The notes below the pieces were generated by a model. That model ran no database searches. It was not told where the DNA came from and was given only the letters and a program-made list of their open reading frames with translations. The position numbers were made by a program, and so were the translations under genes. Shown one piece after another: positions 2,533 to 15,211 of a DNA stretch of 64,000 nt. The stretch lies in IMG/VR virus record IMGVR_UViG_3300049793_000366, positions 310,865-374,864 of that record. One strand, given 5' to 3'. The DNA comes from a virus. The first letter of the stretch is position 1; the number at the start of each line of letters is the position of its first letter.

Positions 2533-3240
2533 TTAGAAATCAATCGGCATCTCAATATACAAGTTTATAATTCTTGTTCTGAAACCAATTTCCGTTAAGG
2601 GTCCAATTACTTTGAAATCGTCAACAATTTGTTTGATTAAACTTTTAGTTTCATCATCCTGACCAGCAGTTGTTAATTTATTGGTAGCTTTTATATAATT
2701 AGATACACCAAAGTTAACATCGTTTAAATATAACGAAACCTGACTGTATGGATTACCATCTTTGTCTTCATCGTGCTTTATATCAATATTATCAATATCA
2801 ATACCATATTTATCATTGACTAACTTTTCTAACTTATACTTATTGATATACATAGTGAAGTCTTCTTCTTGTTCTATGAATATATCTTCTATTTTAATAT
2901 CATCAAATGCTGATTTATAATAAAGCTTAAATTGTATTGAGTAATTACGAACAACCATTAAGTCATCCATTACAAACTCTTCTTCAATCTTCTTAAGGTT
3001 TCTATTAACAAGTAATAATATATCTGAGATATCTCTATATCTCTTAGCTTTCAATTCAATAGTTTCAGTAAGTTCGGTCTTAAAATTTATGGATATAGAA
3101 AGAAAATCACTTGAATTCTCATTGTAGTTAATGTCGATATCGTCAGAATACGTATCTTCAATATTAAAGAAATATTCCTTTAAATCATCTATTTTAGAGT
3201 TTGTTGATTCGAATAATCTGAATGACTTTAACTTTTTCAT
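2533..3240 (-). CDS. Putative capsid-targeted internal protein, 235 aa
   Basis: The N-terminus MKKLKSFRLFES fits the layout of the T4 capsid-targeting peptide, MK, a few residues, F, then L-x-E. LFE followed by S is a plausible prohead-protease site after residue 11. The rest is acidic, with many Asp, Glu and Ile residues, and has no recognised fold. The start codon sits 3 nt after TTAATATATAG, the same element and spacing seen before three other genes with this N-terminus (22268, 32075, 60027). Packaging inside the head is inferred by analogy with T4 internal proteins. Confidence 0.5.
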   Translation of the reverse strand: MKKLKSFRLFESTNSKIDDLKEYFFNIEDTYSDDIDINYNENSSDFLSISINFKTELTETIELKAKRYRDISDILLLVNRNLKKIEEEFVMDDLMVVRNYSIQFKLYYKSAFDDIKIEDIFIEQEEDFTMYINKYKLEKLVNDKYGIDIDNIDIKHDEDKDGNPYSQVSLYLNDVNFGVSNYIKATNKLTTAGQDDETKSLIKQIVDDFKVIGPLTEIGFRTRIINLYIEMPIDF

Positions 3241-4789: not shown

Positions 4790-5120
4790 TATACCATTAA
4801 ATAGTCTTCAACGGTTTACTTTAGAACTTCTTGATATACTTGAATTAAAAAATCAATGTATATTAATGGATGATTATGGTTCTGCTGATGAATGTAGAAA
4901 CCGAGAGAAAAAGTTATTAGATTCAACAGATGATTCTATTATAAAGGCTTTTAACTCTGATTTAAGATTTATAGCAAATAATACCGGAATACAATTAGAT
5001 GAAAGTCGCACATCTGGTTTCTCAACAGTAAAGAATATTAAAAACATACGAAACCTTCTCACATATTATCAATCACTAAGAAACAATAAGATTAACCAAA
5101 TACTTAAAAAAGATGAATAA
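4776..5120 (+). CDS. Small protein with UVR-like helical motif, 114 aa
   Basis: I place the start at ATG 4776 (MIQNNIPLNSLQRF), overlapping the clamp-like gene by 14 nt. A TTG seven codons upstream is also possible. Residues about 18-46 read LKNQCILMDDYGSADECRNREKKLL, which resembles the UvrB/UvrC-type hairpin helix (L-x-x-C...DY-x-x-A-x-x-x-R...E-x-L). The rest is helical. It may be a protein-interaction module linked to replication or repair; the role is inferred from the motif and the neighbour. Confidence 0.55.
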   Translation: MIQNNIPLNSLQRFTLELLDILELKNQCILMDDYGSADECRNREKKLLDSTDDSIIKAFNSDLRFIANNTGIQLDESRTSGFSTVKNIKNIRNLLTYYQSLRNNKINQILKKDE

Positions 5121-8594: not shown

Positions 8595-8630
8595 AAAGTC
8601 CAAAAAAGATTGAATAAAATTGAAAATAAA

Positions 8631-8662
8631 TTTGCAAAACGTATTTTAGTGTTGTATATTTG
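8631..8662 (+). promoter_or_regulatory. Bacteroidota-type promoter P2 (tRNA-Met)
   Basis: TTTG at 8631-8634, a 20-nt spacer and TATATTTG at 8655-8662, 85 nt before the first tRNA gene. Confidence 0.75.
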
Positions 8663-8747
8663 TACTCAGAAAGAAAAAAATAAAAATTTTATTTTTCTTC
8701 ATTAAACAACAAAAGGGAGAAATAAAATATAATATATATAAACATAT

Positions 8748-8819
8748 TGCGGGATAGAGCAGGGGTAGCTCGCTAGGCTCATAACCTAGAGGTCGGGTGT
8801 TCGAATCACCCTCCCGCTA
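8748..8819 (+). tRNA. tRNA-Met (CAT), initiator-like
   Basis: A complete cloverleaf with anticodon loop CTCATAA. Acceptor positions 2-7 pair fully but 1-72 is a T-T mismatch, a feature of initiator tRNAs. The anticodon stem lacks the usual run of three G-C pairs. CCA is not encoded. Confidence 0.85.
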
Positions 8820-8880
8820 CAAAGAATACAAAAATATCAGTCTGGGAATCAGGACTTTAAAAGAAAAAGTAAAATTTTTC

Positions 8881-8911
8881 TTGACAATCTGAAACTTTCA
8901 CCTTATATTTG
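8881..8911 (+). promoter_or_regulatory. Bacteroidota-type promoter P3 (translation island leader)
   Basis: TTG at 8881-8883, a 20-nt spacer and TATATTTG at 8904-8911. It drives the leader region with the small Thr/Asn-rich ORF and, beyond the terminator at 9181-9212, the tRNA and synthetase genes. Confidence 0.75.
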
Positions 8912-9024
8912 CGTAAAAATAAAGAAGTTGTTTACCTCACAAACATCAGATATAGTACGAGGTCTTGATTGAAAAAACAACTCTTAAGGAATTTAATAAC
9001 AAAAACTGAATAAATAAAATAGTA

Positions 9025-9156
9025 ATGAAAACTCTAACAGTAAATATGAATCTAAATAATACCATGACAACGGTGGTGAATATTACGTTATGTAATATTA
9101 GACCGGAATCTGGGTTAGTTCCTATTTGCCTAAAAGAGAAAGATATCATGCGATAA
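9025..9156 (+). CDS. Thr/Asn-rich leader peptide, 43 aa
   Basis: ATG 9025 to TAA 9154. The first 24 residues contain six Thr and six Asn. All four Thr codons are used and all Asn codons are AAT. ORFs of this type act as leader peptides where ribosome stalling at scarce amino acids selects antitermination. Genes downstream of the terminator include tRNA-Asn, three tRNA-Thr, ThrRS and AsnRS. The peptide itself has no other recognisable feature. Confidence 0.5.
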   Translation: MKTLTVNMNLNNTMTTVVNITLCNIRPESGLVPICLKEKDIMR

Positions 9157-9180
9157 CTTATTCACAAGCAAAAAGCTCTA

Positions 9181-9212
9181 AACCCAGATTCATAAAGAAT
9201 CTGGGTTTTTTT
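9181..9212 (+). terminator. Strong intrinsic terminator in the leader
   Basis: AACCCAGATTC (9181-9191), a 5-nt loop, GAATCTGGGTT (9197-9207) and a run of seven T. It ends 2 nt before the next tRNA gene, so tRNA expression from P3 must pass it. Confidence 0.85.
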
Positions 9213-9214
9213 AT

Positions 9215-9290
9215 GCCTATATAGTCCAACAAGAGCAGAGACAGTCGGCTTAAAATCGACACAGTAAGGGTTCGAACCCCTTTATAGGCA
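9215..9290 (+). tRNA. tRNA with Leu anticodon TAA, short variable loop
   Basis: Acceptor GCCTATA pairs with TATAGGC and A73 follows. The anticodon loop is CTTAAAA. The variable region is only 5 nt, unlike normal class II Leu tRNAs. The D-stem is GTC/GAC, shared with the tRNA at 10155. Confidence 0.75.
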
Positions 9291-9300
9291 CAACATATAA

Positions 9301-9372
9301 GGATCAGTAGCTCAGTGGTAGAGCAAGTGACTGTTAATCACTAGGTCGTAGGTTCAAGCCCTACCTGGTCCT
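9301..9372 (+). tRNA. tRNA-Asn (GTT)
   Basis: A canonical class I cloverleaf with anticodon loop CTGTTAA and T-loop TTCAAGC. Base 73 is T, unusual for Asn. Confidence 0.9.
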
Positions 9373-9380
9373 CAAAAAAT

Positions 9381-9459
9381 AGGTATGTACCGAGCCACAC
9401 TGATAATGTGGATATTCGTAGCGGTGTTGTAAACGTGGGTTCAAATCCCACCTTACCTA
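9381..9459 (+). tRNA. Aberrant tRNA, apparent anticodon GAT
   Basis: Acceptor (with one mismatch) and T-arm are good. The arm CCACA-CTGATAA-TGTGG is the same as in the canonical tRNA-Ile at 9819. Only about 4 nt remain where the D-arm should be, and about 23 nt lie between the anticodon and T-arms. It may be a rearranged or decayed tRNA, or an unusual D-arm-less form. Confidence 0.5.
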
Positions 9460-9467
9460 CAAAAAAT

Positions 9468-9540
9468 GCCTGAATAGCTCAGTTGGTAGAGCGTCTGATT
9501 TGTAATCAGAAGGTCGTCGGTTCGAACCCGGCTTTAGGCT
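9468..9540 (+). tRNA. tRNA-Thr (TGT)
   Basis: A canonical cloverleaf with anticodon stem TCTGA/TCAGA and loop TTTGTAA. Confidence 0.9.
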
Positions 9541-9550
9541 CAAGTTAAAT

Positions 9551-9630
9551 GCCCAGATGGTGGAATGGTAGACACGCTGGTCTAAGAAGCCAGTGCTTTT
9601 AGCGTGAGAGTTCAAGTCTCTCTTTGGGTA
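9551..9630 (+). tRNA. tRNA-Leu (AAG)
   Basis: Anticodon loop CTAAGAA, a class II variable arm of about 12 nt with GCT/AGC stem, and A73. Confidence 0.85.
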
Positions 9631-9643
9631 CGAAATAAAATAT

Positions 9644-9717
9644 GCACTCGTGGTCTAACGGACAAGGGCGAGAGTTTTCTAAACTCTAAGGTGGGGGTTC
9701 GATTCCCTCCGAGTGTA
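9644..9717 (+). tRNA. tRNA-Arg (TCT)
   Basis: Anticodon stem AGAGT/ACTCT with loop TTTCTAA; acceptor GCACTCG pairs with CGAGTGT. A cognate ArgRS is encoded at 14036. Confidence 0.9.
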
Positions 9718-9724
9718 CAAAAAT

Positions 9725-9813
9725 TGATGATTTGCCGTAGTTGGCCGAACGGTCCAGACTGTTAATCTGGTGAGCGTTATGCTCCGTCACAGGTTCGAAT
9801 CCTGTATCATCAG
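9725..9813 (+). tRNA. Class II tRNA with Asn anticodon GTT
   Basis: Acceptor TGATGAT pairs perfectly with ATCATCA and is followed by G73. Anticodon stem CCAGA/TCTGG carries loop CTGTTAA (GTT). The variable region is 18 nt with a GAGC/GCTC stem, as in Ser, Leu or Tyr tRNAs. Long arm plus G73 is a seryl-type body, while the anticodon is Asn. Charging identity is therefore uncertain. Confidence 0.8.
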
Positions 9814-9818
9814 CAAAT

Positions 9819-9892
9819 AGTCGGGTAGCTCAGTTGGTTAGAGCGCCACACTGATAATGTGGAGGTCGTGGGTTCAAGTCCCGCTCCGACTA
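9819..9892 (+). tRNA. tRNA-Ile (GAT)
   Basis: A canonical cloverleaf with D-arm GCTCAGTTGGTTAGAGC and loop CTGATAA. Confidence 0.92.
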
Positions 9893-9898
9893 CTAAAT

Positions 9899-9981
9899 GA
9901 CACCATGGCCGAGTGGAGCTGAAAAGCGATAGGCATCAGTCTGCAAAACTGATTACGGGGGTTCAAATCCCTCTGGTGTCT
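9899..9981 (+). tRNA. tRNA-Cys (GCA)
   Basis: Acceptor GACACCA pairs with TGGTGTC; loop CTGCAAA. The D-loop is unusually long (about 21 nt). Confidence 0.8.
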
Positions 9982-9988
9982 CAATGGG

Positions 9989-10052
9989 TTCGGTTTTAGT
10001 CCGAATATGATAAGATTACCTGAGGTAGAAATACTAATCAAGGGGCACCGAA
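9989..10052 (+). other. Structured spacer between tRNA genes
   Basis: TTCGGT (9989-9994) can pair with ACCGAA (10047-10052), enclosing GATTA/TAATC (10014-10018/10035-10039) with an inner TACC/GGTA. Alternatively TTCGG pairs with CCGAA at 10001-10005 to give a 5-bp, 7-nt anticodon-like hairpin. No T-arm is present, so it is not a tRNA. Confidence 0.35.
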
Positions 10053-10062
10053 AGAATTGAAT

Positions 10063-10147
10063 GGTTGGGTGGCGAAATTGGCAGTACGCGGTAGACTTAA
10101 AATCTACTGGTTTTAACACCGTGAGGGTTCAAGTCCCTCCCCGACTA
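10063..10147 (+). tRNA. tRNA-Leu (TAA), class II
   Basis: Anticodon stem GTAGA/TCTAC with loop CTTAAAA, variable arm of about 15 nt with GGT/ACC, and A73. A normal Leu body, in contrast to the short-arm TAA tRNA at 9215. Confidence 0.88.
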
Positions 10148-10154
10148 CAAATGC

Positions 10155-10229
10155 GCCTTCGTAGTCCAAACGCGCAGAGACATACGCCTTAGAAGCGTAG
10201 TGTTGTGGGTTCGAATCCCACCGAAGGTA
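10155..10229 (+). tRNA. tRNA with Leu anticodon TAG, short variable loop
   Basis: Anticodon stem TACGC/GCGTA with loop CTTAGAA and a 5-nt variable loop. D-stem GTC/GAC as in the tRNA at 9215. It decodes CUA and is not a suppressor. Confidence 0.78.
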
Positions 10230-10240
10230 CAAACATAAAT

Positions 10241-10312
10241 GCCCTGATGGCGTAACGGCAAGCGTTATTCTTTTACATGGAATAGGTAGTGGTTCGATTC
10301 CACTTCGGGGTA
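10241..10312 (+). tRNA. tRNA-Val (TAC)
   Basis: Acceptor GCCCTGA pairs with TCGGGGT; anticodon stem ATTCT/GGAAT with loop TTTACAT. Confidence 0.75.
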
Positions 10313-10318
10313 CAAAAT

Positions 10319-10393
10319 AGTTGCATAGCTCAGTTGGTTCAGAGCATCTGCCTTACAAGCAGAGGGTCGTTGGTTCGAATCCAACTGTGACTA
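10319..10393 (+). tRNA. tRNA-Val (TAC)
   Basis: A canonical cloverleaf with anticodon stem TCTGC/GCAGA and loop CTTACAA. Second Val TAC isoacceptor, unlike the one at 10241 in body sequence. Confidence 0.9.
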
Positions 10394-10401
10394 CAAAAAA
10401 T

Positions 10402-10474
10402 GCCCGTATGACGTAATCGGCAGTCGTACTTGTCTCAAAAGCAAGGTGTCTTGGTTCGAATCCAAGTATGGGTA
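10402..10474 (+). tRNA. tRNA with Leu anticodon CAA, short variable loop
   Basis: Acceptor GCCCGTA pairs with TATGGGT; loop CTCAAAA; variable loop of 4-5 nt; A73. A class I body for a Leu anticodon. Confidence 0.75.
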
Positions 10475-10477
10475 CTA

Positions 10478-10649
10478 AACCGAAAGAGATATGTAAGGAA
10501 TGACATATTCTTTCACATCAATGAAGTAATGAAGAATATTCGAATAGTTCGGATTTACTTTGAATGTGTGGGGTGATGAGAGTGGTTAAAGACCACAAGG
10601 GATGGAAACAGTCCTGATGTTTGACAAAGCTCATCGTACTCTTTTGGTT
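10478..10649 (+). ncRNA. Candidate structured RNA inside the tRNA array
   Basis: An 11-bp closing stem, AACCGAAAGAG (10478-10488) with CTCTTTTGGTT (10639-10649), has one G-T pair and encloses about 150 nt. Inside are ATATGT/ACATAT (10489-10494/10503-10508), AAGTAA/TTACTT (10524-10529/10555-10560) with an inner CGAA/TTCG, and GATGAG/CTCATC (10575-10580/10630-10635) holding GTGGT/ACCAC (10582-10586/10592-10596). It has no ORF and no tRNA features. Probably co-transcribed with the flanking tRNAs. Family unknown. Confidence 0.55.
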
Positions 10650-10653
10650 ATTT

Positions 10654-10727
10654 AGTCACATAGCTCAGTTGGTTAGAGCATTCCCTTGACATGGGAAAGG
10701 TCACAGGTTCGAATCCTGTTGCGACTA
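10654..10727 (+). tRNA. tRNA-Val (GAC)
   Basis: Anticodon stem TTCCC/GGGAA with loop TTGACAT; one acceptor mismatch. It starts 4 nt after the structured RNA. Confidence 0.88.
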
Positions 10728-10753
10728 CAAACATACATGAAGTACAAGTGTAT

Positions 10754-10828
10754 GGCGCAGTAGCTTAACTGGATATAGAGCATCTCTGTTTTAGGAGAAA
10801 GGTTTGGGTTCAAATCCCTTCTGTGTAA
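10754..10828 (+). tRNA. Degenerate tRNA, anticodon uncertain (Lys-like)
   Basis: D-arm AGCTTAACTGGATATAGAGC and T-loop TTCAAAT are present. The T-stem has only three pairs, the acceptor has mismatches, and the anticodon stem TCTCT/GGAGA leaves a 6-nt loop GTTTTA. It could be a decaying tRNA-Lys (TTT). Confidence 0.45.
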
Positions 10829-10835
10829 AATATTA

Positions 10836-10919
10836 GCCGATGTGGCTCAGTGGCGACAGCACTTGCCTTGTAAGCAAGTCGTGATAAACGCATCGGGGGT
10901 TCGAGTCCCTCCATCGGCT
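10836..10919 (+). tRNA. tRNA-Thr (TGT) with long variable region
   Basis: Acceptor GCCGATG pairs perfectly with CATCGGC, T73. Anticodon stem CTTGC/GCAAG with loop CTTGTAA. The variable region is about 16 nt, long for Thr, and contains CGT/ACG. Confidence 0.8.
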
Positions 10920-10934
10920 CATAAGAAGTGTAGT

Positions 10935-11007
10935 GCTGATATAGTTCAGTTGGTAGAACGCATCCTTGGTAGGGATGAGGTGACAGGTTCGATTCCCGTT
11001 ATCAGCT
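10935..11007 (+). tRNA. tRNA-Thr (GGT)
   Basis: A canonical cloverleaf with anticodon stem CATCC/GGATG and loop TTGGTAG. Confidence 0.92.
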
Positions 11008-11019
11008 CAAAGTAAAAAT

Positions 11020-11101
11020 GCCGTTGTGAACAGATGTGGTAATTGTGTTCGGCTCATATCCGAATTGGAAACTATTGTAGGTTCGAGTCCTACCAGCGGT
11101 A
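11020..11101 (+). tRNA. tRNA with CAT anticodon (Met or Ile2)
   Basis: Acceptor GCCGTTG pairs with CAGCGGT; anticodon stem TTCGG/CCGAA with loop CTCATAT. The variable region is about 12 nt. Elongator Met, or Ile if C34 is modified to lysidine. Confidence 0.75.
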
Positions 11102-11208
11102 CTAACAAATAAAAATAAACAAATAAAAAACAAGAAGACAATGGGAACGAAAATTTAGACCATAAGGAACTCGGAAAGCAATTAAATCTTTTTTGCTTTT
11201 CAGAAGAT

Positions 11209-12336
11209 GTGGGTAAGGGTCTACCACTATGGTTACCGAAAGGTGCTATAATAAGAGAGGAATTAATTTCTTATCTTAAAAAGATACAACTCAAAATGGG
11301 TTATCAAGGAGTAGTAAGTCCACATATAGCAAATGTTAAGCTATATAAAATATCAGGACACTACGACAAGTATAAGGATCACGCATTTGGAGAGATATGT
11401 TGTCCTGGTGAAGAAAGTTATATGCTTAAACCCATGAACTGCCCTCATCATTGTCAGATTTATAAAAGTGAACCTCGTTCTTATAGAGATTTACCTTTAA
11501 GATTTGCTGAGTTTGGACAAGTATATCGGTATGAAGATAGTGGTGCTGTTAATGGTTTATTACGAGTGCGAGGATTTTGTCAAGATGATGCTCACTTATT
11601 TTGTAGACCTGACCAAGTGAAGGTTGAAATTAACAACATAATTAAACTCGTTCTTTATGTACTGAATGAATTTGACTTTAAAGATTTTAAAGCTCAAATA
11701 TCTCTAAGAGATAGTTCTGATGATAAGTATATTGGGTCAGATGAAGTTTGGGAACAAGCGGAGTCAGCACTAATAGAAGCGGCTAAAGATAATGGATTAA
11801 ACTACAATATCGAAAAAGGTGAAGCCGCGTTTTATGGTCCTAAGATAGACTTCATGGTTAAGGATTGTTTGAATAGAGAATGGCAATTAGGGTCAATACA
11901 ATTAGACTATAACTTACCAGATAAGTTTGAGTTAGAATATATTGATTCGGAAGGGAAGCCGAGTAGACCAGTTATGATTCATAGAGCGCCATTTGGTTCT
12001 TTAGAAAGATTTATAGCAATTTTACTCGAACACTATCAAGGTAGATTACCATTTTGGTTATCACCAGAACAAGTGATGATTTTACCAATATCAGAAAAGT
12101 TTAATGATTTTTCAGATAGTATAAAGTCAAGATTATTTGATAGCGATATCAGAGCAGTTGTAGATAGTAGGAATGAAAGATTGCCTAAAAAAATAAAAGA
12201 TGCTCAATTAAATTATATCCCGTATATGATTGTGATTGGTCAGAAAGAAGTAGATAGTGGAATTTTATCAATTCGTTCAAGAGAAGGAAAAGAAGAAAAG
12301 ATTGATATTGATAGTTTCATTAAAAGTGTAAAATAA
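11209..12336 (+). CDS. thrS: Threonyl-tRNA synthetase, catalytic and anticodon domains only
   Basis: Class II synthetase core: motif 2 region RFAEFGQVYRYEDSG, then RVRGFCQDDAHLF, zinc ligands in KPMNCPHHCQIY, motif 3 GSLERFIAILLEHY, and a C-terminal anticodon domain (PEQVMILPISEKF onward). The N-terminal TGS and editing domains of cellular ThrRS are absent. The only standard start is GTG 11209, but the frame is open from 11119. It encodes LDHKELGKQLNLFCFSEDVG at 11155-11214, which matches the start of the conserved ThrRS core, with no ATG, GTG or TTG. An ATG at 11141 lies one frame off. Three tRNA-Thr genes lie just upstream. Confidence 0.88.
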   Translation: MGKGLPLWLPKGAIIREELISYLKKIQLKMGYQGVVSPHIANVKLYKISGHYDKYKDHAFGEICCPGEESYMLKPMNCPHHCQIYKSEPRSYRDLPLRFAEFGQVYRYEDSGAVNGLLRVRGFCQDDAHLFCRPDQVKVEINNIIKLVLYVLNEFDFKDFKAQISLRDSSDDKYIGSDEVWEQAESALIEAAKDNGLNYNIEKGEAAFYGPKIDFMVKDCLNREWQLGSIQLDYNLPDKFELEYIDSEGKPSRPVMIHRAPFGSLERFIAILLEHYQGRLPFWLSPEQVMILPISEKFNDFSDSIKSRLFDSDIRAVVDSRNERLPKKIKDAQLNYIPYMIVIGQKEVDSGILSIRSREGKEEKIDIDSFIKSVK

Positions 12337-12340
12337 TAAT

Positions 12341-12356
12341 TCCACCGAAAGGTGGA
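12341..12356 (+). terminator. GAAA-tetraloop hairpin after thrS
   Basis: TCCACC, loop GAAA, GGTGGA forms a 6-bp stem 5 nt after the stop. No T-tract, so it may be a processing or stability hairpin before the next tRNA. Confidence 0.45.
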
Positions 12357-12359
12357 TAT

Positions 12360-12432
12360 GCTCTCGTAGTTTAATGGAAAGAATCACACTTTCCTAAAGT
12401 GGCGGGTAGGGGTTCGAATCCCTTCGAGAGTA
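12360..12432 (+). tRNA. tRNA-Arg (CCT)
   Basis: Acceptor GCTCTCG pairs with CGAGAGT; anticodon loop TTCCTAA; stem has one outer mismatch. Confidence 0.8.
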
Positions 12433-12436
12433 CAAC

Positions 12437-12536
12437 GCCTGGGGAAGCTCTTAGTGGTAGGTAGCACTTCAGTAGCTTATATAACAGTCGGTTATGTGAC
12501 AGGAAGAGGGTGTCGGTTCAATCCCGACCTTGGGCG
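12437..12536 (+). tRNA. tRNA-like gene, about 100 nt, anticodon unresolved
   Basis: Acceptor GCCTGGG pairs with CTTGGGC and the T-arm GTCGG-TTCAATC-CCGAC is perfect. The anticodon part is expanded: CTTC/GAAG could enclose an inner ATAAC/GTTAT hairpin (12481-12495). It could be a tRNA with an insertion or a tRNA-like RNA. Confidence 0.5.
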
Positions 12537-12592: not shown

Positions 12593-13771
12593 ATGAAAGG
12601 TTGGATAAAATCAATCAGAGAGTCCAAAGGACTACAATTTCTCGCAGTGACGGATGGGCAACATGACCACCAGCTTACAATTAAAACAGGTGAAGCATTC
12701 ATTGAGGGAAATCCGAAAGTGGGTGCTTCTTTTTTTGCAGAAGGTTTTGATTCTGTAACGCCAAGAGGTCTACCGGAGTTCGTAGTGACTAAGCTGACAA
12801 TAGTTGGTGAATCAGATGATACATTTCCGATTCAACCTAAGCATCATACGCCTGAGTTCTTAAGAAGTATTCCTGAGTTAAGGGGTAAAGCAAAAGGATT
12901 TCAAGCAACATGGAAAATCAGACATCACCTAACACAAGCGATTCATCGTTTCTTAGAAGATGAAGGTTTCTATCAGTACTACACACCGATAGTTACACAC
13001 GCTGATTGTGAAGGAGCTGGTGAGACATTTGATGTAAAGAGTGATTGGATGTCAGAGAAACTAACGGTGTCTGGACAGTTACATGGTGAAGTTGGTATGA
13101 TGTCTTTAGGAAAGATTTATACATTCTCACCTTGTTTCAGAGCAGAGAAGTCTTTAACTAAAAAGCACTTATCTGAATTCTGGATGATTGAACCAGAAAT
13201 TGCGTTCTGTGAATTAGATGAGACAGTTGAATTTGCCGAGAAATTTGTAAAGTCAATAATTAAATATGTACTCACTAAATCAGAGTATGAATTTAAGCAA
13301 CTCGGAATCGACCATCAACACCTCGAACCTCTCCTGGATAAGGATTGGAAGAAAGTAAAATATGATGAAGTATGTGAAACATTTAAGCTCACTTGGGGTC
13401 ACGATATTTCATCTGAAACGGAAAAAAAGATAGTCGAGAAATGGGGACCAACATTCGTTACTGAATACCCAGAAGGATTGAAACCCTTCTATATGAAGAA
13501 AGATGGTAGAGTAGCAAAATGTTTTGATTTAATTTTCCCAGAAGTGGGTGAGTTAATCGGAGGGTCACAACGAGAAGAAGACTATGATAAAATAGTTGAG
13601 CAAATGACTCAAGCACACTTGGATCTGGATAAGATGCACTGGTATTTAGCAACACGAAAATGGGGAACAGTTCCACATTCAGGGTTCGGATTAGGTTTTG
13701 AACGTTTATTAATGTTCATCACCAAAGCAACTAAAATTCACGATGTTATTCCTTTTCCGGTGAGCTATTAA
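12593..13771 (+). CDS. asnS: Asparaginyl-tRNA synthetase, compact form
   Basis: A class II aaRS with an N-terminal OB-fold (MKGWIKSIRESKGLQFLAV, residues 1-95) followed by the catalytic core. AsnRS signatures are DCEGAGETF, KLTVSGQLHGE, CFRAEKSLTKKHLSEFWMIE, ELIGGSQREEDY and TVPHSGFGLGFERLLMF (motif 3). 392 aa against about 465 in bacteria; the shortening lies in the core's insertions. It would charge the tRNA-Asn genes at 9301 and perhaps 9725. The start follows the tRNA-like gene by 56 nt. Confidence 0.93.
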   Translation: MKGWIKSIRESKGLQFLAVTDGQHDHQLTIKTGEAFIEGNPKVGASFFAEGFDSVTPRGLPEFVVTKLTIVGESDDTFPIQPKHHTPEFLRSIPELRGKAKGFQATWKIRHHLTQAIHRFLEDEGFYQYYTPIVTHADCEGAGETFDVKSDWMSEKLTVSGQLHGEVGMMSLGKIYTFSPCFRAEKSLTKKHLSEFWMIEPEIAFCELDETVEFAEKFVKSIIKYVLTKSEYEFKQLGIDHQHLEPLLDKDWKKVKYDEVCETFKLTWGHDISSETEKKIVEKWGPTFVTEYPEGLKPFYMKKDGRVAKCFDLIFPEVGELIGGSQREEDYDKIVEQMTQAHLDLDKMHWYLATRKWGTVPHSGFGLGFERLLMFITKATKIHDVIPFPVSY

Positions 13772-13788: not shown

Positions 13789-14055
13789 ATGAATAATATT
13801 AATATAACAGAAATAGTAAAGAACGGAAAAACAGAATTAACACACGCAGTAGCAGGAGTACTCTATTATAGAACTGATACCAATACACACAGTTATATCT
13901 ATGTGATTGATATGAATGATAGAGAAGATGTAGGTACTGCTACATTCGAAGCAAGGCCAAAAACCTTATATTTGATGCGTTGGATTCGAAAGTCCATAGA
14001 GAATAATACAATAATCGTAATTAAAAAGAAATACAATGAAACTGAATCTAAATAA
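13789..14055 (+). CDS. Unknown small protein between two synthetase genes, 88 aa
   Basis: It begins 17 nt after asnS and overlaps the start of the ArgRS gene by 20 nt. The sequence looks like a small alpha/beta protein (VLYYRTDTNTHSYIYVIDM) with a basic C-terminus. Function unknown; expression must be coupled to the synthetases. Confidence 0.6.
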   Translation: MNNINITEIVKNGKTELTHAVAGVLYYRTDTNTHSYIYVIDMNDREDVGTATFEARPKTLYLMRWIRKSIENNTIIVIKKKYNETESK

Positions 14056-15211
14056 AATAAAAACAACTCCGAAAGGAATGCCCTTTGGCTTCTGTGTGTA
14101 TGGGAAACCTACACCAGAAGTCCAAGCATGGGCTTCGCATTGGAATATCAAAGAGCAAGAGTCGGGTCCATATACGAATTTCATCTTACCTGATGGCTTA
14201 AGTATCGAAGAGATTTTTGAAGAAGCAAAAACATATGAGTGGGTCGATGGTTTTAGTCCAAATTTAAATAAACATTTGCACTTAGGTCACTTATCTAATC
14301 TGATTATAGCCAAAGCAATGCAGTCAATGAGTGTAGGTAAAAACTACATAGCGATATTGGGTGATACGCTGTCTGGTCAGGTTGATAAAACAGATGCCTT
14401 GAAGAAGTATAATGAATATTGTCAGAACTTCGGGTATAATATCAATCAACTCATTTTCGCCTCAGAACAAAAATTATCAAATGATATTTTAGTTGATGGT
14501 GATGGTGAATATACGGGAACGAAAATATTCAATATCAATGAAGACAAAGTTGTAGGAATTAAAAGCGATGGTTCAACATCCTATTTCTATCAAGATGTCT
14601 CACTTGCTCAAAAGTTAAACGCACCAACGTTGTATTTAACTGGATTTGAACAAGTGGGGCATTTTTCGTTATTGAAACAATTATTCCCGCATATAGAACA
14701 CATTGGTCTTGGATTGGTAACAGTAGATGGTAAAAAGATGTCTTCATCTGAGGGTAATGTAATCTTCGCAGAGGATATTTTCAATCAACTACTTGATAAA
14801 TTTAGTGGTGATGAAAAATTAGTTTGGAATGTAATAGCTGGGCAAATTTTAAAATCTACACCAAATTCTGTTAAGAATATCGATATGAAGCAAATTGAAA
14901 ATGTAAAACAATCTGCTGGGTTGTATATCTCTTATACGATGGCACGTATGTGGTCAGCGGGTATTGAATACATTGAAACTGATACTATCGAGGATCCTGC
15001 TCTTCTTTTTAAATCAATGAAAGCGAAGTTTAACTTACAACCGAATATTCTATTCGAAGAGGTAATTGAACATTGTAAGAAAATTAATAACTTATATATA
15101 ACACACAAAATAAAAGACAACGATGCTAATACAAAATTATTTCAATCACTCACCAACGATTTGGTGACAACGACTAAAAAATTAGGATTATTTAAAATAA
15201 ATAAATTATGA
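14036..15211 (+). CDS. argS: Arginyl-tRNA synthetase-like class I synthetase
   Basis: HLGH occurs in SPNLNKHLHLGHLSNLI (residues about 78-94), a variant of the ArgRS SPN-x-x-K-x-x-H-x-GH motif. DGKKMSSSEGNV (residues about 231-242) is the KMSKS loop. TSYFYQDVSLAQ and the C-terminal SAGLYISYTMARMWSA resemble ArgRS segments. 391 aa compared with 550 or more in cells; the N-terminal Add-1 domain and other parts are missing. Cognate tRNA-Arg genes lie at 9644, 12360 and 15671. TrpRS was considered and rejected because of the SPN and ARM motifs. Confidence 0.75.
   Translation: MKLNLNKIKTTPKGMPFGFCVYGKPTPEVQAWASHWNIKEQESGPYTNFILPDGLSIEEIFEEAKTYEWVDGFSPNLNKHLHLGHLSNLIIAKAMQSMSVGKNYIAILGDTLSGQVDKTDALKKYNEYCQNFGYNINQLIFASEQKLSNDILVDGDGEYTGTKIFNINEDKVVGIKSDGSTSYFYQDVSLAQKLNAPTLYLTGFEQVGHFSLLKQLFPHIEHIGLGLVTVDGKKMSSSEGNVIFAEDIFNQLLDKFSGDEKLVWNVIAGQILKSTPNSVKNIDMKQIENVKQSAGLYISYTMARMWSAGIEYIETDTIEDPALLFKSMKAKFNLQPNILFEEVIEHCKKINNLYITHKIKDNDANTKLFQSLTNDLVTTTKKLGLFKINKL

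Follow-up and report, generated by a model that had tools for sequence, protein, structure and literature searches.

What would a phage gain from a short reading frame and a strong terminator placed directly in front of its tRNA genes? The question is raised by a stretch of 64,000 nucleotides (the window), bases 310865-374864 of a 507,910-base IMG/VR virus record (G000 below). The promoter, leader and terminator described below, and the operon behind them, are on the plus strand of the window. A promoter (8881-8911), with TTGACA at 8881 and a -7 box, TATATTTG, at 8904-8911, precedes a 43-codon ORF (9025-9156) encoding the peptide MKTLTVNMNLNNTMTTVVNITLCNIRPESGLVPICLKEKDIMR. A terminator with a perfect 12-bp stem (9180-9208) comes after it. 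An earlier note on this DNA had described promoter, ORF and terminator, and all three are where it had placed them. It had also pointed to the repeat GAATCTGGGTT, which indeed occurs at 9106-9116 and again at 9197-9207, each copy being complementary to 9181-9191. Compared with shuffled versions, the leader RNA has a fold that is better by 4.4 sd. TAnnTTTG is the form that the -7 promoter element takes in Bacteroidota; the box makes it probable that the host of the phage belongs to the Bacteroidota. Further upstream (8631-8820) there is a tRNA-Met gene with a TATATTTG promoter of its own, outside the control of the leader, and lone tRNA-Met and tRNA-Arg(tct) genes in related phages are likewise without leader units.

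The terminator is followed by a tRNA array (9215-11102; ARAGORN and the Rfam tRNA family) in the order Leu, Asn, Ile-like, Thr, Leu, Arg(tct), Asn, Ile(gat), degenerate Cys, Leu, Leu, Val, Val, Leu, Val, one unassigned, Thr, Thr, Met. Two odd members were missed by ARAGORN and added by Rfam: the Ile-like gene, which has extra bases (9381-9459), and the degenerate Cys(gca) gene (9899-9982, Rfam match 9917-9973). Clear tRNA-Cys(gca) genes are found in the corresponding operon of three relatives. Behind the array lie a short form of threonyl-tRNA synthetase, aligned from profile position 189 (11209-12336; TIGR00418, E 4e-155), tRNA-Arg(cct) (12360-12433; ARAGORN), asparaginyl-tRNA synthetase (12593-13771; TIGR00457, E 3e-116) and an ArgRS-like class I synthetase (14036-15211; PF00750, and TIGR00456 argS at E 1.5e-11, which is under the family cut-off). 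The earlier inventory of tRNA-Asn, three tRNA-Thr, ThrRS and AsnRS was therefore correct in what it named, with tRNA-Asn as two genes, and incomplete: the first tRNA is Leu, and more Leu, three Val, Ile, Arg, Met and the degenerate Cys had been omitted.

On the strength of six Thr and six Asn among the first 24 residues of the leader, that note had taken the unit for an attenuator sensing these two amino acids. The count is right, and at the composition of the window's proteins at least 12 Thr or Asn in 24 residues have a probability of 5.5e-6, uncorrected for the fact that these two residues were singled out. Thr and Asn are simply the most frequent letters of a broader set. All 24 residues of codons 3-26 (TLTVNMNLNNTMTTVVNITLCNIR; the regulatory codons T3-R26, 9031-9102) are T, N, L, V, I, R, C or M, and all belong to the amino acid set of the downstream tRNAs. 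These eight amino acids make up a fraction of 0.40 of the residues in the window's proteins, among whose 14,372 residues the longest run within the set is 10. A run of 24 has a probability of about 3e-10 at that composition. A sensor of Thr and Asn alone was dropped, the L, V, I, M, C and R codons also having their tRNAs downstream. What is strongly supported is the other half of the claim, a leader-peptide attenuator of tRNA and synthetase genes. Judged from sequence, the unit is very probably a ribosome-mediated transcription attenuator of a phage tRNA/synthetase operon, sensing the supply of charged tRNA for all the operon's amino acids at once.

The window's leader, of a class that we call TNL, is not alone in its genome. 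Five further leader-terminator units are present in G000, each before its own tRNA cluster: YIGAE (with MNTLIYIGYIAEGGYEAG; its cluster has Glu, Tyr, Gly, Ile(tat) and Ala tRNAs), QPD (MKTLINIQVQPDPQ, before Asp, Glu and Pro), Q (MNNLVQQVQQQQ, before four Gln tRNAs), HKFWS (MLVISSHKHFSKSNKWF, before His, Lys, Trp, Phe and Ser(gct)) and RS (MKTTMTITISRSRSSRS, before Ser(tga, gga) and Arg(acg, gcg)). Jointly the six leaders cover all 20 amino acids. The synthetase genes follow the same rule, since all 11 seen in the G000 operons match their own leader (by operon: ThrRS, AsnRS and ArgRS-like; GlyRS-like, AlaRS-like and TyrRS; ProRS; GlnRS; LysRS and TrpRS; SerRS). In a related genome (G002) a GluRS gene (L031:11466-12000) lies downstream of a TNL operon whose leader is without Glu; it is either an exception to this rule or a separate transcription unit.

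Two other observations deserve mention. G000 encodes a tRNA with anticodon CTA (G000:C1:121630-121701, L017:1631). Going by its anticodon, it would read UAG, and stop-codon recoding or suppression in this phage is possible. Homing-endonuclease-like or similar mobile inserts, recognised by eye only, are seen inside tRNA/synthetase operons at L051:2307-2927, L008:3869-4645 and L016:2633-3199.

Conservation in related phages, the absence of which would have spoken against an attenuator, was looked for and found: ORF and terminator are kept, and leaders alignable with that of the window stand in the same place in nine relatives. Nine related phage records (LR756502 and LR745206, of 642 and 635 kb, and IMG/VR contigs) contain 46 leader-terminator units, with additional units in G007, G008, G010 and others. 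The distance from stop codon to terminator is 17-35 nt in all 46, and in 38 of them TAnnTTTG occurs within 160 nt upstream of the ATG. A recurrent motif, TTTAATATATAA, is seen just 5' of most leader ATGs (e. g. L002:5938-5955 and L031:8874-8891). Several genomes have the YIGAE operon divided into a YE and an IGA operon, and there the leader is divided too, for example into MNTITNIASYESYYEEG and MKNLNNISIAVIGNGAGA.

When leaders and tRNA sets are paired in all possible ways, the true pairing ranks best in each of eight related genomes (1/720 in four, 1/120 in three and 1/24 in one), with the proviso that where a terminator had several candidate ORFs one was chosen, so that selection, there as for the GTG-started B leader of phi4:1 described below, was not fully blind. 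The match extends to synonymous codons. For Ile, the ratio of ATA to other codons is 16:3 in IGA and YEIGA leaders, whose operons have tRNA-Ile(tat), versus 0:16 in TNL leaders, which use ATY and precede tRNA-Ile(gat). The AGR:CGN ratio for Arg is 9:0 in TNL leaders (tct, cct) versus 1:10 in RS leaders (acg, tcg, gcg). Ser is encoded by AGY rather than TCN 22:14 in HKFW leaders (gct), and by TCN rather than AGY 21:9 in RS leaders (tga, gga). Matching is also confined to one part of the leader: 378 of 549 residues belong to the tRNA set before the point where a stall frees the antiterminator arm, and 88 of 485 after it. Same-class leaders of different genomes are homologous and hence are not independent samples; therefore the strength of these comparisons rests on the number of classes and on independent partitions of the code.

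Such partitions exist. Matching leaders were found in the megaphages LR756504 and LR756501 and in the cultured Cellulophaga phage phi4:1, and each divides the code differently. LR756504 has IAIVEIAVIGGAEEG before Glu, Ala, Ile, Val and Gly tRNAs, LSLCLSLSLSL before Leu, Ser and Cys, IAMIIRMRIIR before Arg, Ile and Met, and both KQDKQYQPQYD and KKQQYKQYQPQYK before Asp, Tyr, Gln and Lys. LR756501 has TPAPAVAFRRGTGTGTGT before Arg, Thr, Val, Ala, Gly and Pro, YNDYCIND before Ile, Cys, Asp, Asn and Tyr, IINMIQEQMQQIQ before Met, Gln, Ile and Glu, a Leu-rich leader before five Leu tRNAs, and SKHSKHFSSSSKWF before Trp, His, Phe, Lys and Ser. In phi4:1, QRLHLQELEQP precedes Pro, Glu, Gln, His, Leu and Arg, the B leader TKTGITVIDKTKGARA, which needs a GTG start, precedes Ala, Lys, Ile, Gly, Met, Asp, Thr, Val and Arg(tct), and NYCTYNNSNWSFSY precedes Tyr, Ser, Asn, Trp and Phe. 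The true pairing is again the best of all permutations (1/120 in LR756504, 1/120 in LR756501 and 1/6 in phi4:1). The three phi4:1 units are at L101:2128-2196, 3088-3171 and 4834-4932; in the deposited annotation the second overlaps a hypothetical protein (3052-3171), whereas the first and the third are left without any gene. By the same scan, phi17:2 has two of the phi4:1 leaders and phi38:1 has one unit.

Bacillus phage G possibly offers a case outside phages of Bacteroidota. At L131:1382-1577 an ORF with MMKCSWFEFDTDFTDVFYCEYTFYSLYTF and a terminator stand directly before tRNAs for Cys, Asp, Phe, Tyr, Glu, Thr and Ser; the composition of this candidate fits the rule, and its antiterminator is without support. 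No leader-terminator unit matching the array was found in the tRNA-rich controls, Vibrio phage KVP40 and Bacteroides phage crAss001, or in Sphingomonas phage PAU, and the HKFW leader pattern had no match in bacterial genome contigs.

Could the RNA of these leaders switch? In the window, four segments can be distinguished. Segment 1 (9040-9063) is predicted to pair with 9113-9129 when free of the ribosome; the helices predicted for the full transcript are 9040-9046:9123-9129, 9048-9050:9119-9121, 9052-9054:9116-9118 and 9061-9063:9113-9115, and in this predicted fold they can form together with the terminator. Segment 2 (9106-9129), the 5' arm of the antiterminator, consists of GAATCTGGGTT and an extension, and is complementary to 9168-9191; the 2:3 duplex has a dG of -18.6, and none of 200 shuffles is as good. 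Segment 3 (9180-9191) is the 5' arm of the terminator and is also used by the antiterminator. Segment 4 (9197-9208) is the terminator 3' arm and is followed by a U run. Within the leader another hairpin is predicted (9071-9105; 9079-9086 with 9092-9099, extended by 9071-9074 with 9102-9105). Its loop, GTTAT, and flanks are conserved in most of the TNL class, and it is possibly a pause hairpin for RNA polymerase.

The same design recurs elsewhere. In most leaders the regulatory codons are closely followed by a second copy of the terminator 3' arm, which is complementary to the terminator 5' arm. The 2:3 duplex is matched by 10 or fewer of 200 shuffles in 33 of the 46 units and in 14/15 units of the other phages. 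In a minority of units the antiterminator is weak or absent: these include the RS unit of G000 (98/200 shuffles as good), the IGA units of W02, G002 and G004, the Q unit of W01 and the QPD unit of G001. When antiterminators are permuted among classes, the true arrangement has rank 8 of 40320. Covariation, which the earlier note had proposed as a check, is seen between antiterminator and terminator in the HKFW class: the 2:3 and 3:4 helices covary, with four pairs each changed on both sides, and none of 500 shuffles reaches the score (segment triplets ATTCGA/TCGAAT/ATTCGA, GTTCGG/CCGAAC/GTTCGG and ACTTGG/CCAAGT/ACTTGG). It was counted on this class, and not on the window's TNL class, because the MAFFT alignment of the latter shifts segment 2 of the window by about five columns. 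The window has ATCTGGGTT in all three segments, and most relatives have CTGAGGGTT.

We also folded each leader with a ribosome on each codon in turn and a transcript ending in the terminator loop, i. e. before segment 4 exists. In nearly all units segment 3 is captured by segment 2 for stalls at regulatory codons and is released beyond them. In equilibrium folding with a moving ribosome boundary, the terminator mostly beats the antiterminator at any position, with dips at the regulatory codons in some units only. Since the terminator usually wins at equilibrium, the switch must be kinetic. Segment 2 ends 7 nt or less from the stop codon in 28/46 units, and the classical geometry would fit those. 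The earlier note had cautioned that a ribosome parked at the stop codon would leave 9106-9116 uncovered. This holds for the leader of the window and the TNL class, and not for the 28 units just mentioned: the window's segment 2 ends 33 nt upstream of the stop, exposed behind such a ribosome, and static folding re-forms the 2:3 duplex.

How, then, might the unit work? We infer the following sequence of events. RNA polymerase would transcribe the leader with a ribosome following. If any one of the eight cognate aminoacyl-tRNAs were scarce, because of phage codon demand or destruction by host or phage action, the ribosome would stall on codons 3-26; the leader would thus act as an OR-gate. The stall would leave segment 2 free to pair with 9168-9191 before segment 4 is made, no terminator would form, and the tRNAs would be transcribed along with the ThrRS, AsnRS and ArgRS-like genes. 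If all were plentiful, the ribosome would mask segment 2, or segment 1 would re-pair with it, the 3:4 terminator would form and transcription would stop. The products of the operon would themselves close a negative-feedback loop. For the window there may be two ways out of the stop-codon difficulty: a ribosome trailing by roughly 70-105 nt could mask segment 2 during terminator synthesis, aided by a pause at 9071-9105, or segment 1 could take up segment 2. With six such units in G000, the genetic code would be split into separately controlled sets.

The same attenuator may have a different trigger. It could sense host tRNA cleavage by anti-phage nucleases of the PrrC, retron or PARIS type, or phage-driven loss of host tRNA. 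We regard this as a possibility to be held tentatively. Phage tRNAs have been reported to evade tRNA-cleaving defences (PMC10264068, PMC11555353), and leaders covering all 20 amino acids in one genome fit general tRNA loss better than starvation for a single amino acid. The mechanism would be identical with that under codon-demand depletion, and sequence does not separate the two triggers. A more radical alternative is that the short ORFs encode functional peptides, for instance tRNA- or ribosome-binding ones, and that the terminator only insulates the array from upstream transcription. The core VVNxTLC(N)IRP of the TNL leaders, conserved across phages, would suit this. Yet the seven classes, unrelated in sequence, follow their respective tRNA sets even in the choice of synonymous codon box, the ORF contains a copy of the terminator arm, and the tail past segment 2 diverges freely; we find such a role very improbable. 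Even less likely is direct sensing of uncharged tRNA by the RNA, as in a T-box, with an incidental ORF. Synthetases are typical T-box targets in Firmicutes, but in a Rfam search of 8600-12500 at E up to 5 there was no match to a T-box or other riboswitch, only tRNA passing the cut-off, and a T-box would not be expected to contain an open frame with such long stretches of matched codons. That the Thr/Asn bias and the repeats arose by chance in AT-rich DNA, which yields many Asn codons, and that the terminator belongs to an upstream gene, is hardly credible given the 24-residue run (longest elsewhere 10) and is contradicted by conservation in many genomes with best-of-all permutations.

We thus return to the attenuator, a known class of mechanism. 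Attenuation by leader peptides is classical, in trp, in the multivalent ilv and thr operons and, for a synthetase, in pheST. The leaders of E. coli ilvGMEDA (Leu/Val/Ile) and thr (Thr/Ile) resemble the phage units in their short ORF, clustered cognate codons, antiterminator and terminator, and OR-type sensing of several amino acids. Their output, however, is biosynthetic enzymes, whereas that of the phage units is tRNA genes and synthetases; a single phage leader reads as many as eight or nine amino acids, the whole code is shared out among the leaders of a genome, and the units are phage-borne. E. coli pheST, with its pheM leader peptide, shares attenuation of a synthetase gene and feedback through charging, but it concerns one amino acid and a host gene, without tRNA genes in the operon and without a paralogous set of attenuators. 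T-box leaders of Firmicutes likewise switch a charging operon on when its own charged tRNA is short; in contrast to the phage units, which would sense through the codons of an ORF, they bind uncharged tRNA without translation.

The tRNA arrays already described in huge phages have the same content, many tRNAs and several synthetases, and have been discussed as codon compensation and defence evasion (PMC10264068, PMC7162821). When these two papers were searched for the terms, neither a leader peptide nor an attenuator or terminator before the arrays came up. Nor did we find a report of attenuation of phage tRNA operons in the literature searched, which lay outside subscription papers and most preprints; as far as the papers searched go, this use of the mechanism has not been reported.

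We think it likely that this is an undescribed regulatory layer of phage translation. Phages that are rich in tRNAs and unrelated to one another (huge phages, cultured Cellulophaga podoviruses and perhaps Bacillus phage G) would each have divided all 20 amino acids between a small number of operons under polyspecific leaders that read the codons of their own tRNAs. The phage would in this way monitor the charged-tRNA pool of its host separately for each codon box, and make good any shortage or destruction. If correct, the leaders would reveal, from sequence alone, the groups of tRNAs that a phage supplies together. The proposed OR-gate, with as many as eight or nine amino acids as inputs, can be tested in cultured phi4:1 on Cellulophaga baltica, and the attenuator would be a ready part for building sensors of tRNA supply. 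The reason for which phages encode tRNAs has been under debate for decades (PMC10264068). If the proposal is true, the phages themselves would show the purpose of these tRNAs, namely production on demand whenever cognate charged tRNAs become scarce.
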